Shown in pieces: positions 17,876-45,981 of a DNA stretch of 62,586 bases (its first letter is position 1; each line of letters opens with the position of its first letter). The notes beneath the pieces were generated by a model that was given only the letters and a program-made list of their open reading frames with translations, searched no databases and was not told where the DNA came from. The translations under genes and the position numbers were made by a program. Source of the DNA: Bacteroidota bacterium (GTDB lineage Bacteria; Bacteroidota; JABWAT01); contig JAKLJL010000014.1 of NCBI GenBank assembly GCA_023151185.1, positions 1 through 62,586 on the forward strand, written 5' to 3'.

Positions 17876-17910
17876 CAAAGGTCACACCCGGTTGTGACAA
17901 CGGGCTGTCA
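17876..17910 (-). promoter_or_regulatory. Promoter with nested dyad, possible WYL-regulator operator
   Basis: On the reverse strand GACCTTTG (17883-17876) is one base off the TAnnTTTG -7 element and lies about 28 bases before the ABM start. Just upstream are GTCACA-N6-TGTGAC (17881-17898) and TGACA-N6-TGTCA (17895-17910), which overlap within a larger imperfect dyad (CCCG-g-TTGT / ACAACGGG). The position suggests an operator for the WYL protein or another regulator. The dyad could instead act as a weak terminator for the WYL gene. Confidence 0.4.
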
Positions 17911-21354: not shown

Positions 21355-21950
21355 TTGCATTTCTGAGAGGGCAGCTTGCCGTAAAATCACCTACCGAAGT
21401 CGTTCTGGATGTTAACGGAGTCGGGTACCGGGTGTTTATCTCGCTTCAAACCTATGACTTTCTGCCCCAGACCGGTGAAACATGCCAGCTTGAAACCCAT
21501 TATATCGTCCGGGAAGACGGTCACTATCTCTACGGATTTCATCACCGGACGGAGCTCGATCTGTTCAAAAATCTGATTTCAGTAAGCGGTGTAGGCCCCA
21601 AAATCGCCATTTCGGTTCTTTCTGCCCTGAAGCCGGAAGATCTGGTTCAGCATCTTGCCACGGCCAACGTCAGAATCCTGAAGACCATTCCGGGAGTCGG
21701 GCAGAAAATGGCTGAACGCCTGATAGTTGAATTAAAGGATAAAGTTTCTAAACTTGCAGGAACTCATACTACCAACTGGCTGGCTGGGGGGACAGATCAG
21801 GCCAGGGAAGATGCGGTTGCCGCCCTTGTGGCACTCGGATTTACCCGGCAGGTGGCTGAAAAATCGATTGCTGCTGTAACCGGCAGTCAAGCGGAACCAC
21901 TGAAAACTGAGGATATGATCCGTTTAGCATTAAGGCAGACCGTCAAATGA
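21351..21950 (+). CDS. ruvA: Holliday junction branch-migration protein RuvA
   Basis: This 199-residue protein has domain I (MIAFLRGQLAVKSPTEVVLDVNGVGYRV), domain II with two helix-hairpin-helix motifs (ISVSGVGPKIAISVLSAL and LKTIPGVGQKMAERLIVELKDK), and domain III (AREDAVAALVALGFT) that contacts RuvB. It forms a tetramer that holds four-way junctions. ATGA overlaps at both ends couple it to ruvC upstream and to the response regulator downstream. Confidence 0.96.
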   Translation: MIAFLRGQLAVKSPTEVVLDVNGVGYRVFISLQTYDFLPQTGETCQLETHYIVREDGHYLYGFHHRTELDLFKNLISVSGVGPKIAISVLSALKPEDLVQHLATANVRILKTIPGVGQKMAERLIVELKDKVSKLAGTHTTNWLAGGTDQAREDAVAALVALGFTRQVAEKSIAAVTGSQAEPLKTEDMIRLALRQTVK

Positions 21951-22636
21951 AATCTGGTGAAAAAACGATCCTGATCGTTGACGACGAACAGGACATCCGT
22001 GACCTCCTGGTTTATAACCTGAAAAAAGAGGGCTTTTCCACGATTGCCGCCCGGAACGGCAAGGAAGGCCTGGTACTTCTTGAATCCGAAAAAATAGATG
22101 CCATTGTACTGGATCTGATGATGCCGGTCATGGATGGACTCGAAATGTGCAAACTCGTCAGGGCCAATCAGAAATTCAATGAAATTCCCATCCTGTTTCT
22201 GACAGCCAAAGACAGTGAAATTGATGAAGTTCTGGCGCTTGAACTGGGCAGTGACAGTTACCTGAAAAAACCCATTTCACCCCGGGTGCTCATTAGTCAC
22301 ATTAAAGCGCTTCTCCGCAGAAGTATACCGGCTGCAGCCTCGACCCCGCAGGATGTCATCAAAACCTCCAAACTGGAAATTGACCCGGCAACCTACACGG
22401 TCACGTTTAAGGGAAAAGCCGAGCAGCTTCCCCGGAAGGAATTTGAACTGCTGTATTTCCTGGCCAAAAACAAAAACCGCATCTTTACCCGGGAACAGAT
22501 TCTGAATTCAGTCTGGGGGCAGGATGTGATTGTCGGTGACCGGACGGTTGACGTTCACGTCCGGAAACTGCGGGATAAACTGTATCAGGATGTCATTGTC
22601 ACTGCACGCGGAGTCGGATACAAACTGAATACCTGA
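21947..22636 (+). CDS. PhoB-like OmpR-family response regulator
   Basis: This 229-residue regulator has a receiver domain (IVDDEQDIRDLL, phospho-acceptor Asp56 in IVLDLMMPVMDG, Lys in LKKPISPR) and a C-terminal winged helix ending in VTARGVGYKL. The sequence resembles PhoB/PhoP-type regulators, and the downstream kinase is PhoR-like, so a phosphate-starvation role is plausible but not proven; no pst genes are nearby. Its ATG overlaps the ruvA stop, an unusual coupling of a regulator to DNA-repair genes. Confidence 0.9.
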   Translation: MKSGEKTILIVDDEQDIRDLLVYNLKKEGFSTIAARNGKEGLVLLESEKIDAIVLDLMMPVMDGLEMCKLVRANQKFNEIPILFLTAKDSEIDEVLALELGSDSYLKKPISPRVLISHIKALLRRSIPAAASTPQDVIKTSKLEIDPATYTVTFKGKAEQLPRKEFELLYFLAKNKNRIFTREQILNSVWGQDVIVGDRTVDVHVRKLRDKLYQDVIVTARGVGYKLNT

Positions 22637-39699: not shown

Positions 39700-41088
39700 T
39701 TAAACGGTACTGGAAAACCGGTTTTCGGTTGGTTTATTTTTCAGGAATCTGTCGAACCGCATGGCGATTGTTCTCAGAAAAAGTTCTCCCTTTTCGGTTA
39801 CCACAAACCGGTCGGGAAACAGCCTGACGAGGCCGTCATCCAGCAAATCCTGCATATCCTTCAGTTCGGCGGCAAAATAAGTCAGAAATTCCACTGCTGT
39901 CTTCCGTTTGAAATCGTCAAAAAAGACAGCAAAGGAAATCATGATGTCCATGATGGCCGTTTTACGGATAAAGTCATCCCGGGTCATTTTATAACCCGTT
40001 TCAACCGGAATAAATCCGGAATCCAGGCGGTCTTCATAGCCCTTCAGAGTCCGGTCATTCTGGATGTAGGAACCCAGAACATACCCGATCGCCGAGTTGC
40101 CGAAGGCGAGAATATTTTCGGTATCCAGCTCGGTGTAGCCCATAAAGTTCCGTTTCAGGGTACCGTTGTTCAGCGCCTCATAAAGTTCGTCTTCGGGCTT
40201 GGCAAAGTGATCGAGGCCAATCAGGAAATACCCGTTTGCCTCGAAGAATTCCCGTGCGGTGACCAGCAGTTCCATTTTAGCTTCAGCATCCGGTCTGGGA
40301 TGTTTTTCGAGAACTGTCTGATGTTTGTGCATCCAGGGAACATGGGCATACGAAAACATAGCCACGCGGTCAGGATTTAAAACAAGGACTTTCCGGAGGG
40401 ATTCGAGGAAAGAATCTTTGGTTTGATAGGGAAGTCCGTAAATCAGATCAATATTGATGGACTGGGCTCCGGCGAAACGGGCTTCCTGAACCAGGCGGGC
40501 AGTATCTTCAAACGTCTGGATCCGCCGGACGGTTTCCTGAACTTTCGGATCAAAATCCTGAACGCCGAATGAAAACCGGTTGAACCCTTCCTCTGAAAGA
40601 GCCTGAATGTGGGCAGCAGTGGTAACAACCGGATCAATTTCGACCGACAGTTCACCCGAAAGATAGTTGATGTCGAACCGGGTATTCAGAATAGCCATCA
40701 ACCGGCGGATCTGGTCGGGATTCAGGTAAGTTGGCGTTCCGCCGCCCCAGTGAAGCTGCTGAACTTTGGGTTTAAATCCGAGTGAATCCGAAACCAGACT
40801 GATTTCCTTTTCCAGATGGGCCAGATACCGGTTGGCAACTGAATGGTCACTTCTGACAGTCACATTACAGGCGCAGAACAGGCATCTTTCTTCACAAAAC
40901 GGGATATGCAGGTACAGGCTTATCGGTTCCTCTTCATAGCCTTTCAGCCGGGACAGCAGTTTCCGGTAATCAGTTTCCTGATAGCCCGGTTTCCATTCAG
41001 GAGCAGTCGGGTAACTGGTATAACGGGGACCTGCCTGATGGTATTTCTGCATCAGGGATACGATTTCGGTAAATTGTTCGGCTTCCAA
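39700..41088 (-). CDS. hemN: Oxygen-independent coproporphyrinogen III oxidase
   Basis: This radical-SAM enzyme (462 residues from the preferred start) converts coproporphyrinogen III to protoporphyrinogen IX without oxygen. Visible are QKYHQAGPRYTSYPTAPEW, the cluster motif CEERCLFCAC (CxxxCxxCxC, diagnostic of true HemN rather than HemW), QLHWGGGTPTYLNP and FSFGVQDFDPKVQ. TTG at 41088 gives the same N-terminal spacing as E. coli HemN; an ATG at 41052 would cut 12 residues. The frame is open further up to 41292 but runs through hemE. It is the last gene of the hemL-HK-RR-hemE-hemN operon. Confidence 0.93.
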   Translation of the reverse strand: MEAEQFTEIVSLMQKYHQAGPRYTSYPTAPEWKPGYQETDYRKLLSRLKGYEEEPISLYLHIPFCEERCLFCACNVTVRSDHSVANRYLAHLEKEISLVSDSLGFKPKVQQLHWGGGTPTYLNPDQIRRLMAILNTRFDINYLSGELSVEIDPVVTTAAHIQALSEEGFNRFSFGVQDFDPKVQETVRRIQTFEDTARLVQEARFAGAQSINIDLIYGLPYQTKDSFLESLRKVLVLNPDRVAMFSYAHVPWMHKHQTVLEKHPRPDAEAKMELLVTAREFFEANGYFLIGLDHFAKPEDELYEALNNGTLKRNFMGYTELDTENILAFGNSAIGYVLGSYIQNDRTLKGYEDRLDSGFIPVETGYKMTRDDFIRKTAIMDIMISFAVFFDDFKRKTAVEFLTYFAAELKDMQDLLDDGLVRLFPDRFVVTEKGELFLRTIAMRFDRFLKNKPTENRFSSTV

Positions 41089-41107
41089 CGGAGTCGTGCT
41101 TTCTGAG

Positions 41108-42151
41108 TTAAGGTCTAACGGACTGTTTTTTGACTGCCTGAACAAGTGCCCGGGCATGTTCGGGAGGAACGTCGGGGAGAATGCCGTGTCCCAGATTGAA
41201 AATATGGCCGGTACCCGGTCCCCATTGATCCAGAAGCCGTTTGACTTCCGTTTCGATGGCACCCGGCGATGCATACAGAAATGACGGGTCAAAATTTCCC
41301 TGCAGGGAAACCCGTCCGCCGGTCAATTCCCGGGCATGATCAAGAGAGACCGTCCAGTCGAGGCCCAGAACCTGGGCTCCGCACCGGCTCAGGCGGTCAA
41401 GCGATCCGGTTGCCCCTTTGGCAAATACAATAACGGGTACATCCAGAATTTTCAGGGAATCTACAATAAATTCAATGTACTGCAATCCGAATTCTTCATA
41501 ATGAACGGGGTCAAGTGCCGAGGCCCAGGTATCAAAAATCTGGATCAGGTCAGCACCGGCTTCGACCTGGGCAATCAGATAATCTGAAATGGCAAACGAA
41601 AGCTGTTTCAGAAGGGTGTGGGCTGTTTCTGGGTGATCCTGAATCAGGGATTTTGAATACCGGAAGGTTTTGGATGAAGCCCCCTCAACCATATAGGTCA
41701 GCAAAGTCCAGGGTGCTCCAGAAAACCCGATCAGCGGAACACGGCCATCAAGCGCCTGTTTGGTCATTTTAAGTGCATCCATCACATACGACAGATCCGA
41801 AACCGCATCAATTACTTTCAGATTCGCAACATCCGAAGCAGTTCTGACCGGATTGTGAATCACCGGGCCTTTCGATTCGATCAGTTCCAGATCAGAGCCC
41901 ATGGCTTCAGGTATGACCAGAATATCCGAAAAAATGATGGCAGCATCCACACCGATCAGATCAACCGGCTGAAGGGTGACTTCTGTGGCCAGTTCGGGGG
42001 TTTTGCACATTTCGAGAAAGGACCTGCCTTCTCTGACCGCCCGGTATTCGGGCAGGTAACGCCCGGCCTGGCGCATCATCCAAACAGGTGTCCGTTCAAT
42101 GGGCTGCCGTCGTGCGGCACGCAAAATCAGGTCATTCTGAAGCGGTTTCAT
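41108..42151 (-). CDS. hemE: Uroporphyrinogen decarboxylase
   Basis: This 347-residue enzyme removes four carboxyl groups from uroporphyrinogen III to give coproporphyrinogen III. Signature motifs are RTPVWMMRQAGRYLPEYR (substrate-binding Arg), GFSGAPWTLLTYM and the C-terminal FNLGHGILPDVPPEH. Its start overlaps the stop of the response regulator by one base (TGATG), so expression should be translationally coupled to the two-component genes. hemN follows after about 20 bases. Confidence 0.97.
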   Translation of the reverse strand: MKPLQNDLILRAARRQPIERTPVWMMRQAGRYLPEYRAVREGRSFLEMCKTPELATEVTLQPVDLIGVDAAIIFSDILVIPEAMGSDLELIESKGPVIHNPVRTASDVANLKVIDAVSDLSYVMDALKMTKQALDGRVPLIGFSGAPWTLLTYMVEGASSKTFRYSKSLIQDHPETAHTLLKQLSFAISDYLIAQVEAGADLIQIFDTWASALDPVHYEEFGLQYIEFIVDSLKILDVPVIVFAKGATGSLDRLSRCGAQVLGLDWTVSLDHARELTGGRVSLQGNFDPSFLYASPGAIETEVKRLLDQWGPGTGHIFNLGHGILPDVPPEHARALVQAVKKQSVRP

Positions 42152-42852
42152 CAGGCTCCGGTAAACTTATATCCGGTTCCCCGGATGGAATGAATGAACC
42201 GGGGATTTCCCGGATCTGTTTCAAAATATTTTCTCAGCCGGGCAATAAAATTATCAATTGTCCGGGTTGTCGGGTAAATATCGTATCCCCAAACCCGGCT
42301 CAGAATAGTTTCCCTCGAAACAACCTGACCTTCATTCTGGATGAGGAGTTTCATGATCTCGGTTTCTTTGGAAGTCAGTTCAACCCGCCCGGCAGCGGTA
42401 TCTGCTTCCTGCCGTGAAAAATAGATCACATTTGGCCCGAATTGATGCTGGTCGACCAACAGTTTGGATGAAGTATGCTGAACCAGTGACGACCGTTTCA
42501 CCAATCTGCCAATTCTGAGAAGCAGTTCCTCCAGGTTAAAGGGTTTGGTCATGTAGTCATCTGCACCGGTTTTCAATCCTTTGATTTTATCCTGATCCTG
42601 ATACCGGGCCGAAAGGATCAGAACCGGGGTGGTTTCGTCCTTGATCCGGATGGATTCCAGAACATCAAAACCGGATGCACCGGGCAGCATCAGATCCAGA
42701 ATGACCAGGTCAAACCGTTCATTTTCGAACGTTTCAATGGCCCGGATGCCGTTTGGAATCAGGGTAACCGAGTACCCTTCCTGTTCCAGATTGAATTTCA
42801 GGGCTTCTGCAATATTCAGTTCATCTTCGACCAGCAAAATTCTCTGATCCAT
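42151..42852 (-). CDS. OmpR/PhoB-family response regulator inside the heme operon
   Basis: This 233-residue protein has a receiver domain (LLVEDELNIAEAL, phospho-acceptor Asp53 in VILDLMLPGASG, Lys in MTKPFNLEEL) and a winged helix ending SIRGTGYKFTGA. The ATG at 42852 has GAGGG five bases upstream and lies one base after the kinase stop; an ATG at 42864 would overlap the kinase by 11 bases. It is translationally coupled to hemE downstream. By position it should regulate heme synthesis, or be regulated with it; TGTCA repeats upstream of hemL could be its site. Confidence 0.9.
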   Translation of the reverse strand: MDQRILLVEDELNIAEALKFNLEQEGYSVTLIPNGIRAIETFENERFDLVILDLMLPGASGFDVLESIRIKDETTPVLILSARYQDQDKIKGLKTGADDYMTKPFNLEELLLRIGRLVKRSSLVQHTSSKLLVDQHQFGPNVIYFSRQEADTAAGRVELTSKETEIMKLLIQNEGQVVSRETILSRVWGYDIYPTTRTIDNFIARLRKYFETDPGNPRFIHSIRGTGYKFTGA

Positions 42853-42853
42853 T

Positions 42854-44179
42854 TCATCCCTCATGCAAAACCGGCAGTGTGACAGAAAATTCGGACCCTT
42901 TTCCCGGTTCAGATTCCACAGAAAGGGTTCCCTTGTGCAATTTCACACATTCGGCAGCAATAAACAATCCAAGTCCGGCGCCCTTTGTATTCCGGGTCAG
43001 TTCATCATCAACCCTGAAAAATTTATCAAAAATAAACGGCTGTGCTTCCCGGGGGATTCCCTGTCCGGTATCTTTAACCCGGATGGTAACAGTTTTTTCC
43101 TGACGGGCAGAGGAAATGAGGACCTGACCTTCTGAATACTTCAGGGCATTATCTGCCAGATTAAAAAAGACCGACTGCAGCTTTTTTTCATCACCCTGAA
43201 TCCAGAGATCCTGCCGGAAGGTCTCATCCAGAAAAACCCGTCCGGATTGGGCATATTTACCTGTCGAAAACCAGGATTCCATCAGCTCAAACAGATTGAC
43301 TTCGGTGAAGGTAATTTTTTCGGTCTGACTTTCAAGCCGGGAGGCAGACAGGATATTTTCGATATGGTCATCAAGGCGGGCTGTTTCCTCGACGGCATTC
43401 TGAAGAAATTCGGTTCTTTTTTCCTTCGGCGGATCATGTCTGAGCAGGGTTTCGAGATAAAGCCGGACGGAAGCAACCGGTGATTTAAGTTCGTGGGTAA
43501 CGGTCAGCATAAAATTATGGACCTGATGGCTGTGGATCCGTTCAGCCCGGATGTTGGTGTACAGCAGGGCAACGGCGATGAGCATCAGTAAAATAAAGAA
43601 TGACCCTTCCCAGACGAACATTCTCAGCAGTTTTTCCGTTTCGTCATTTACCTGACGGATGTAACTGTCAGAAACCCGCAAATCTTCGGGCTGGATAAAC
43701 CACTGACGGCCGGGGGTTGCAATGTCGTAAATCCGGACTTCCGGATAGTGGGTTTCGAGCCAGTCCCGCAACTTCAGGGCATTGAGATGCTCATATAAAA
43801 TCTGGCCGTTCTGAACCTGACGGGCCATCCAGAGAGAGGAAAAATGAACCCGGTTATCACCGGGAACAAGTCTTTGCCGGGCTGCCGAAAATCCGGTTGA
43901 ATCGCCGGACGAAATGAGACTGAGTCCATCCTGAATCAGTACGGTACCGGCAATAAACGTGGCTCTTTCTGGCAACTCAGGTTCAGTCAGCAGGTGATGA
44001 AGGTGCCAGGCAGCGACGTACCGGGTTTTTTCGGCGAGTTTCAGTGAAACCCCCGAGGTGATCCGGGAATGATTGATCTGAAAAAGAATCCACCAGATAA
44101 TCTGGACAAAAATCACGGCAACGATGAAGAGAAAGGTCGTCAGCAAAATCCGGTTCTTTTTTTCCAGACGGTGATTCAT
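42854..44179 (-). CDS. Sensor histidine kinase inside the heme operon
   Basis: This 441-residue kinase has TM1 at about 11-33, an extracytoplasmic domain (about 34-188) with several His and Trp residues, and TM2 at about 190-208. There is little or no HAMP; HisKA follows directly with His229 in LTVTHELKSPVASVRLYL, then HATPase_c (NLADNALKYS, KDTGQGIP, FDKFFRVDDEL, GAGLGLFIA). Its start overlaps the hemL stop (ATGA) and its stop is next to the response regulator start. The signal could be heme, oxygen or an envelope cue; the sequence does not settle this. Confidence 0.9.
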   Translation of the reverse strand: MNHRLEKKNRILLTTFLFIVAVIFVQIIWWILFQINHSRITSGVSLKLAEKTRYVAAWHLHHLLTEPELPERATFIAGTVLIQDGLSLISSGDSTGFSAARQRLVPGDNRVHFSSLWMARQVQNGQILYEHLNALKLRDWLETHYPEVRIYDIATPGRQWFIQPEDLRVSDSYIRQVNDETEKLLRMFVWEGSFFILLMLIAVALLYTNIRAERIHSHQVHNFMLTVTHELKSPVASVRLYLETLLRHDPPKEKRTEFLQNAVEETARLDDHIENILSASRLESQTEKITFTEVNLFELMESWFSTGKYAQSGRVFLDETFRQDLWIQGDEKKLQSVFFNLADNALKYSEGQVLISSARQEKTVTIRVKDTGQGIPREAQPFIFDKFFRVDDELTRNTKGAGLGLFIAAECVKLHKGTLSVESEPGKGSEFSVTLPVLHEG

Positions 44180-45483
44180 CTGTTCATCCCGAATGCGGCT
44201 TTCAGTGCCTTTTCTGCAACTGCCAGCGTAATGTCAATATCCTGACGGGTATGGGCAGAAGAAAGGAATCCGACTTCATATCCGCTGGGGGCAATGTAAA
44301 TTCCGTTTTCAAGACAGGTCCGGAAGTAAATCCGGTAAAAGTCCATGGTTTTCGGATCGATATGATGGGCTGCCCGCATGGTTTCCGGCTGGCCGAAATA
44401 AAGCCAGAAAACAGATCCAACCCGGAATGGCGTAACCGGAAGGTTCAGTTTGGAAATCAGGTTCCGGATCCCTGTTTCCAGATAAAGACCGAGCTGCTCC
44501 AGCTCCTCATAAAATCCCGGAGTAAACAGCAGGGAAAGCTGGGCAATTCCTGCAGCCATGGCAACCGGATTTCCGGAAAGAGTTCCGGCCTGGTACACTT
44601 TTCCCACGGGTGCAATACAGCTCATGATCTCCCGTTTTCCGGCATAAGCCCCAACCGGAAACCCGCCGCCGATGATTTTGCCGTACGTGACCAGATCCGG
44701 CCGGATTCCGTAAAGATCCGAAGCGCCGCCGGCAGCAACCCGGAATCCCGAAATCACCTCATCAAAAATGAGGACGGCACCGAACCGGGAAGTCAAATCC
44801 CGCAATTTCTGCAGGAATTCCTTCCGTTGAAGCAAAAGTCCGTTATTGGCAGGAATTGGTTCAATGATCACAGCCGCAATCGAATCGGGAAACCGGCTGA
44901 ACAGGTCTTCGACCAGATCTTCCCGGTCAAGCGGAACGACCAGGGTTTCTGCAGCCAGTTTTTCGGGAACGCCGGGAGTTGATGAAATACCGAAGGTTGC
45001 CAGGCCAGATCCCGCATTGACCAGCAGGCTATCAACAGCCCCGTGGTAACAACCGTCAAATTTGATAATTTTATCCCGGCCGGTAAACCCTCTTGCAGCC
45101 CGGATAGCCGACATGACGGCTTCTGTTCCCGAATTGACAAACCGGATCATTTCGGCGTGGGAAATGCGGGAAGTGATCAGTTCGGCAATTTCAAGTTCAT
45201 ACGGATTCGGCGTCCCGAAACTGGTTCCGTTTCCGGCGGCTTCGATGACCTTTTCCAGAATGGACGGATGGGCATGCCCCGAAATCAGCGGGCCCCAGCT
45301 GCAGCAATAATCAAGATAGGTGTTTCCGTCGGTATCGGTAATCCTGCTGCCTTTTCCCGATTTCATAAAAATGGGGGTTCCGCCAACTGATTTAAAGGCC
45401 CGTACCGGTGAATTCACGCCGCCGGGAATTACCCTGCAGGCAGCTTCATAAAGGGCTTTCGATCTGGTTTCTGTAAAACTCAT
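44176..45483 (-). CDS. hemL: Glutamate-1-semialdehyde 2,1-aminomutase
   Basis: This 435-residue PLP enzyme makes 5-aminolevulinate in the C5 route of tetrapyrrole synthesis. Features include VIPGGVNSPVRAFKSVGG at the N-terminus, FVNSGTEAVMSAIRAARG, FDGCYHGA, LIFDEVISGFR and the PLP lysine in VTYGKIIGGGFPVGAYAG. It is the first gene of the operon and overlaps the kinase start by 4 bases. The promoter region 45484-45557 holds a CATCTTTG -7-like element and three TGTCA repeats. hemA, hemB, hemC and hemD are not in the window. Confidence 0.97.
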   Translation of the reverse strand: MSFTETRSKALYEAACRVIPGGVNSPVRAFKSVGGTPIFMKSGKGSRITDTDGNTYLDYCCSWGPLISGHAHPSILEKVIEAAGNGTSFGTPNPYELEIAELITSRISHAEMIRFVNSGTEAVMSAIRAARGFTGRDKIIKFDGCYHGAVDSLLVNAGSGLATFGISSTPGVPEKLAAETLVVPLDREDLVEDLFSRFPDSIAAVIIEPIPANNGLLLQRKEFLQKLRDLTSRFGAVLIFDEVISGFRVAAGGASDLYGIRPDLVTYGKIIGGGFPVGAYAGKREIMSCIAPVGKVYQAGTLSGNPVAMAAGIAQLSLLFTPGFYEELEQLGLYLETGIRNLISKLNLPVTPFRVGSVFWLYFGQPETMRAAHHIDPKTMDFYRIYFRTCLENGIYIAPSGYEVGFLSSAHTRQDIDITLAVAEKALKAAFGMNR

Positions 45484-45509: not shown

Positions 45510-45553
45510 CAAAGATGGCGGATCATGTCAGGAAAAGTGTCAGCCGGGTGTCA
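45510..45553 (-). promoter_or_regulatory. hemL promoter with three TGTCA direct repeats (candidate OmpR/PhoB-type site)
   Basis: Plus-strand TGTCA occurs at 45526-45530, 45538-45542 and 45549-45553, that is TGTCA-N7-TGTCA-N6-TGTCA, a period of 11-12 bases. Reading toward hemL, the repeats (as TGACA) end 8 bases before CATCTTTG (45517-45510), one mismatch from the TAnnTTTG -7 element and about 27 bases before the ATG. Tandem TGTCA at an 11-base period is the classic PhoB-box pattern, although here the repeats face away from the gene. Binding by the operon's own regulator or by the PhoB-like protein is inference. Confidence 0.5.
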
Positions 45554-45557
45554 TTTC

Positions 45558-45950
45558 TCACCGGAAAAACGGAAAGGCAATCAGGTACCGGTGTTCCTCT
45601 CCCTGCCCGGCCCGCATTCCTGCCTGAATCATCATGGCAAAGAGAGTCAGCCCAATGGAGGCCAAGGCAGCCAGAATACCGTAATGCCAGGACTGAGGGA
45701 TTACTTCCAGTTTCAGCGGATAGTACAGCATTCCGAAAATCAGGGCGAGAATAAGAGTAACTGTCAGCTGGAAGTTTAAGGAAGATTTGGCGTGCCGGAT
45801 GATAAACGGATCATCATCCCGTTTGAAATACCAGATTGCCGCCGGGGCCAGAAGATTGGCAAACGGAAGGTTTAAAAGAACAACCAGCGGCAGGAAGTGG
45901 CAGAGTCCGGCCCATAACCGGATGTCTTTCAGATGTTTTTCTTCAGTCAT
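45558..45950 (-). CDS. DUF4870-domain membrane protein
   Basis: This 130-residue protein has four hydrophobic segments and the DUF4870 pattern: WAGLCHFLPLVVLL, LLAPAAIWYFKRDDDPFIIRHAKSSLNFQLT. The function of this small membrane family is unknown. It lies 74 bases upstream of hemL on the same strand with the regulatory repeats in between, so it could be co-regulated or simply adjacent. It has its own TATCTTTG element upstream. Confidence 0.85.
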   Translation of the reverse strand: MTEEKHLKDIRLWAGLCHFLPLVVLLNLPFANLLAPAAIWYFKRDDDPFIIRHAKSSLNFQLTVTLILALIFGMLYYPLKLEVIPQSWHYGILAALASIGLTLFAMMIQAGMRAGQGEEHRYLIAFPFFR

Positions 45951-45973: not shown

Positions 45974-45981
45974 CAAAGATA
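45974..45981 (-). promoter_or_regulatory. -7 element of the DUF4870 gene
   Basis: The reverse strand reads TATCTTTG, identical to the rpsU element and an exact TAnnTTTG match, 24 bases before the ATG at 45950. The -33 position reads TTCG, one base from TTTG. Confidence 0.5.

Follow-up and report, generated by a model that had tools for sequence, protein, structure and literature searches.

A putative HemR-type operator in front of hemL and hemA points to a HemKR-like heme circuit in Bacteroidota

The window analysed here, a 62,586-nucleotide stretch of a Bacteroidota genome, contains a heme biosynthesis operon headed by hemL, with tandem repeats directly in front of it. These repeats very probably form a hem-box that would be bound by the operon's own HemR-like response regulator, working with a HemK-like sensor kinase, to activate both the hemL operon and the hemA operon. 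Judged from sequence, the system would be one already known in kind from Leptospira and newly seen in Bacteroidota as far as the open-access literature shows; we found no report of HemKR outside Leptospira in that literature, although Morero et al. may discuss its distribution.

On the + strand, TGTCA occurs three times, at 45526-45530, 45538-45542 and 45549-45553, with gaps of 7 and 6 bases. Read on the hemL strand, the arrangement is TGACA-N6-TGACA-N20-CATCTTTG, with the third TGACA (N7) lying within the N20 spacer, 8 bases from CATCTTTG. The first-pass annotation had these coordinates, spacings and box distance right. The full hemL-strand intergenic sequence is GAAATGACACCCGGCTGACACTTTTCCTGACATGATCCGCCATCTTTGCC; the upstream DUF4870 gene ends in a stop codon 4 bases before the first repeat, and hemL, on the - strand, has its start codon at 45483. 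Features are listed in Table 1. The true start of hemN is probably internal to the open reading frame given there. An unrelated type of site, the palindromic inverted repeat TGACAACGGGCTGTCA, is found in an intergenic region at 17895-17910 of the window.

Table 1. Features of the hemL operon and its upstream region (window coordinates)
Feature	Position	Strand	Basis
DUF4870 membrane protein gene, upstream of hemL	45558..45950	-	PF09685; own TATCTTTG box at 45974-45981
hem-box TGACA-CCCGGC-TGACA, putative HemR-like operator	45538..45553	-	exact match to published TGACA[N6]TGACA; half-sites conserved in G001 and G002
Third TGACA, hemL-proximal, 12 bases from second copy	45526..45530	-	inside spacer; not conserved in G001/G002
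-7-like promoter box CATCTTTG	45510..45517	-	20 bases after hem-box; CATTTTTG in congeners and at hemA
hemL, glutamate-1-semialdehyde aminomutase	44176..45483	-	TIGR00713 above cut-off
HemK-like sensor histidine kinase	42854..44179	-	HisKA + HATPase_c; position as Leptospira kinase
HemR-like response regulator, OmpR/PhoB family	42151..42864	-	Pfam; recognition region PTTRTIDNFIARLRKYF; tree grouping
hemE, uroporphyrinogen decarboxylase	41108..42151	-	TIGR01464 above cut-off
hemN, oxygen-independent coproporphyrinogen oxidase	39700..41292	-	TIGR00538 above cut-off, match from residue 79

TGACA[N6]TGACA has been described in Leptospira biflexa as the hem-box bound by phosphorylated HemR (Imelio 2024, PMC11426443), and phosphorylated HemR is proposed there to activate hem genes (the hemA operon) and to repress hmuO; the first characterisation of HemR binding, by Morero et al., is cited in that paper. 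The kinase and regulator genes of L. interrogans sit between hemE and hemL, and this arrangement of hem genes with two-component genes was called novel and taken as evidence of hem reorganization in Leptospira (Louvel 2008, PMC2266917). In the L. interrogans record we found the order hemA-hemCD-hemB-hemL-HK-RR-hemE-hemN, with the box TGACACTTCTTTGACA just before the first gene; the record annotates that gene only as hypothetical, and we name it hemA after the published operon. The window order hemL-HK-RR-hemE-hemN is that of L. interrogans. The two systems thus share the operator TGACA-N6-TGACA, a box at hemA, an OmpR/PhoB-type regulator with the recognition region PT.RTIDN.I.RLR..F, and a kinase-regulator gene pair flanked by hemL and hemE. 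They differ in the Bacteroidota host with its TAnnTTTG-type promoter, in the split into two operons (hemL and hemA), each with its own box, and in the regulator itself, that of the window being 33% identical to HemR.

The hemL upstream region was compared between the window genome (G000), two congeners (G001 and G002, whose hemL genes are 74-75% identical) and a further member of the family (G003). Both congeners align gap-free with the window from the DUF4870 stop codon to the -7-like box. Across these three genomes, 25 of the 26 letters agree in the blocks GAAATGACA, GCTGACAC and CATYTTTGC; the stretches between them agree in 0/4 and 7/19 letters, and four-fold degenerate sites in the genes on either side give a baseline of 36% identity. 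The N20 spacing is kept in both congeners, where the box is CATTTTTG. Alignment of the relatives, proposed in the first-pass annotation as a check on TGTCA spacing, therefore showed the first two repeats and their spacing to be kept, while the three-copy pattern held only for the hemL-distal pair: the third TGACA is absent at the equivalent position in both G001 and G002. The DUF4870 gene adjoins hemL in all four family members; a genome-contig search with DUF4870 returned just the same two congeners and one unrelated match. DUF4870 and hemL overlap in G003, which has no such promoter, and no box was found for its hemL operon. In G001, hemL and its box (G001:C49) lie apart from the kinase, regulator, hemE and hemN genes (G001:C58), which follow a glycosidase gene; the relocated kinase-regulator genes have no box of their own within 2 mismatches. 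Nor was a box within 2 mismatches found before DUF1211 in G003, DUF4870 in G002, hemL in G036 or hemCD in G098.

A sister copy of the site lies in front of hemA. The hemA promoter of the window genome reads TTACACTTGAATGACA-N20-CATTTTTG, its box being TTACA-N6-TGACA, with one mismatch to the hem-box, while the hemL box is exact. In the G002 hemA promoter both blocks are identical to those of the window genome (TTTTACACTTGAATGACA, TCTGCCATTTTTGTA) and the N20 spacing is likewise the same; G003 has a two-mismatch version, TTACC-N6-TGACA-N21-GATTTTTG. Searching the three genus genomes with the composite TKACA-N6-TGACA-N20-CATYTTTG, we found exactly two perfect matches in each: at hemL in all three, at hemA in G000 and G002, and in G001 at a site near a contig end that is identical to the G002 hemA promoter. 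The composite was built from these promoters, and the match count is a measure of uniqueness and not an independent discovery; what is independent is the appearance at hemA of a motif derived from hemL, and its later recurrence in other families. No further composite matches at 0-1 mismatch were present in the window genome. A wider regulon there was considered and rejected, the other exact TGACA-N6-TGACA sites (C25:564 and C27:80949) lying before unrelated genes without a -7 box at N20. At C27:80949 the full pattern is TGACT-N6-TGACA-N6-TGACA, with an 11-bp period, approximately 50 bases before a gene for a secreted fibronectin-type protein.

In order to follow box and regulator across the phylum, 394 Bacteroidota genomes were surveyed for homologues of the window regulator (E<=1e-60), which were found in 42. 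The hem-box was then sought within 260 bases upstream of hemA in 28 regulator-positive and 28 regulator-negative genomes. An exact TGACA-N6-TGACA was present in 19 of the 28 regulator-positive genomes, and a box with at most one mismatch in 22/28 regulator-positive versus 1/28 regulator-negative genomes (Fisher p 5e-7 for exact boxes and 7e-9 for <=1 mismatch, in related genomes and uncorrected for phylogeny). Three regulator-positive genomes of families f7 and f32 without trace of a box have distant regulators (47-49% identity). Several genomes of family f2 carry the entire cluster hemA-hemCD-hemB-hemL-HK-RR-X-hemE, whose hem, kinase and regulator genes are ordered as in L. interrogans; among the f2 cluster stretches, the box before hemA is exact in G121, G378, G213 and G362 and has two mismatches in G137 and G079. 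In the stretches around the regulator from 20 genomes (L281-L300, about 350 kb), the exact box occurs only before hemA. Between the box and TAnnTTTG there are mostly 20-21 or 30-32 bases, two spacings that differ by one turn of the helix. What the sequences themselves show is the site and its conservation, its occurrence in front of both heme operons, the order of the genes, and the joint occurrence of box and regulator. Compared with f2, most f6 genomes have the hemA box an extra helical turn away from the -7 box, and some f6 hemA promoters (L224, L230, L245) contain three to four TGAC(A) repeats with an 11-bp period. The G040 hemA promoter (L279) has a perfect hem-box and N20, yet the regulator was not found there at E<=1e-60; this genome likely has a divergent regulator.

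Which regulator binds the box was addressed by sequence and tree comparisons. The recognition region of the window regulator is closer to that of Leptospira HemR (PTNRTIDNSIVRLRQAF) than to that of the protein encoded at 21947 (RTVDVHVRKLRDKL). One tree separated the genome's paralogues from a group made up of the window regulator, Leptospira HemR and the hem-linked regulators of Bacteroidota (98/96). In a second tree the paralogues formed a group (98/97), and a single clade joining the window regulator with HemR, which sits on a long branch, was not rejected (p-AU 0.26); row C21_128923 of this tree is a wrong open reading frame and is disregarded. By BLAST, Leptospira HemR scored 140 bits against the paralogue C21:33350 and 136 bits against the window regulator. 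Since C21:33350 scores marginally higher, the case for a link to Leptospira HemR is carried by gene order and box more than by sequence similarity. The slightly better alignment of C21:33350, together with the retention of the box at hemL in G001 though the kinase-regulator genes have moved away, would suit a genuine box that governs heme genes yet serves as the site of a different OmpR-family regulator of the genome, such as C21:33350. We consider this unlikely, because in f2 the regulator clustered with hem genes is homologous to that of the window, with the box heading the cluster, C21:33350 falls among the other paralogues (98/97), and the presence of the box tracks the hem-type regulator.

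The first-pass annotation had weighed autoregulation against phosphate control, the latter through the PhoB-like regulator encoded at 21947-22636. The E. coli Pho box, bound by PhoB, likewise consists of tandem 11-bp direct repeats recognised by a protein of the OmpR-family fold, with the site at the -35/-33 position, and the 11-bp period of the TGTCA repeats and the 21947 protein's best score against PhoB models fit such a reading. Control of hemL by phosphate is nevertheless very improbable and was set aside: neither pstB (E<=1e-60) nor phoU gave a match in G000 (or in G001), the sister copy stands before a heme gene, hemA, and the trees place the 21947 regulator outside the HemR-like group. 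A site at pst genes, which phosphate control would predict, was not borne out in G002, which has Pst, as its pstS promoter holds nothing better than 2 mismatches. The orientation is also opposite to that of a Pho box, as had been noticed; this is accounted for by a TGACA-N6-TGACA hem-box on the hemL strand. Autoregulation was thus the better of the two proposals, and the wider expectation of a tandem 11-bp site of OmpR/PhoB-family type before an operon encoding such a regulator agrees with our results. The phosphate transport system looks patchy within this one family, pstB having been found in two of the four genomes (G002 and G003) and phoU in G002 alone.

The exact triple occurs once in the 3.74-Mb genome (0 mismatches). 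Exact TGACA-N6-TGACA has three matches genome-wide against two for the reversed control, so function cannot be argued from raw motif counts alone; within the window there are two cases of some 5-mer repeated three times at this spacing. That the repeats arose by chance between two genes, with no regulatory role, is nonetheless scarcely credible given the 25/26 conservation across three blocks, the same geometry at hemA and the phylum-wide recurrence there. By conservation and recurrence in the sequences compared, the two hemL-distal copies are not chance; the third TGACA is probably chance or an accessory half-site, chance being still likely for that copy.

We return to the preferred reading, a hem-box served by the operon's own regulator. 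TAnnTTTG is enriched upstream of genes in the window genome, with a weak T preference (TT) 22-23 bases before it. At the hemL promoter the second TGACA occupies those 22-23 positions and the -7 box is off consensus; with the -33 position so taken, this fits an activator-dependent class II promoter. Our inferences on binding, on activation as opposed to repression and on the signal are as follows. The HemR-like regulator would pair with the adjacent HemK-like kinase, and a phosphorylated regulator dimer would bind TGACA-N6-TGACA, its promoter-proximal half-site covering the -33 element position 20 bases before the weak CATYTTTG box. The bound regulator would take the place of the -33 element and activate transcription of two target operons, hemA-hemCD and hemL-kinase-regulator-hemE-hemN. 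Because the hemL operon includes the kinase and regulator genes, positive autoregulation is proposed together with control of hemA. In Leptospira, 5-aminolevulinic acid shuts HemKR down, as published for L. biflexa only (PMC11426443), and by analogy a porphyrin-pathway metabolite may switch the present system off.

Since site, regulator and gene order are found again in several Bacteroidota families, a circuit thought peculiar to one spirochete group appears to be much more widespread. The chances are about even that transfer between phyla has given several Bacteroidota families and Leptospira a common module (hem gene order, HemK-HemR and hem-box) and that this module is what chiefly controls heme synthesis at the level of transcription in these Bacteroidota, the operons having split and each new head operon having gained its own box. 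In practical terms, TGACA-N6-TGACA at hemA may serve as an annotation rule that predicts a HemR-like regulator, and the Bacteroidota offer non-pathogenic organisms for the study of HemKR. How Leptospira and Bacteroidota came to have the module in common is a question that follows from the finding, and box, regulator and gene order, taken together across the Bacteroidota, define a testable heme regulon for the phylum.
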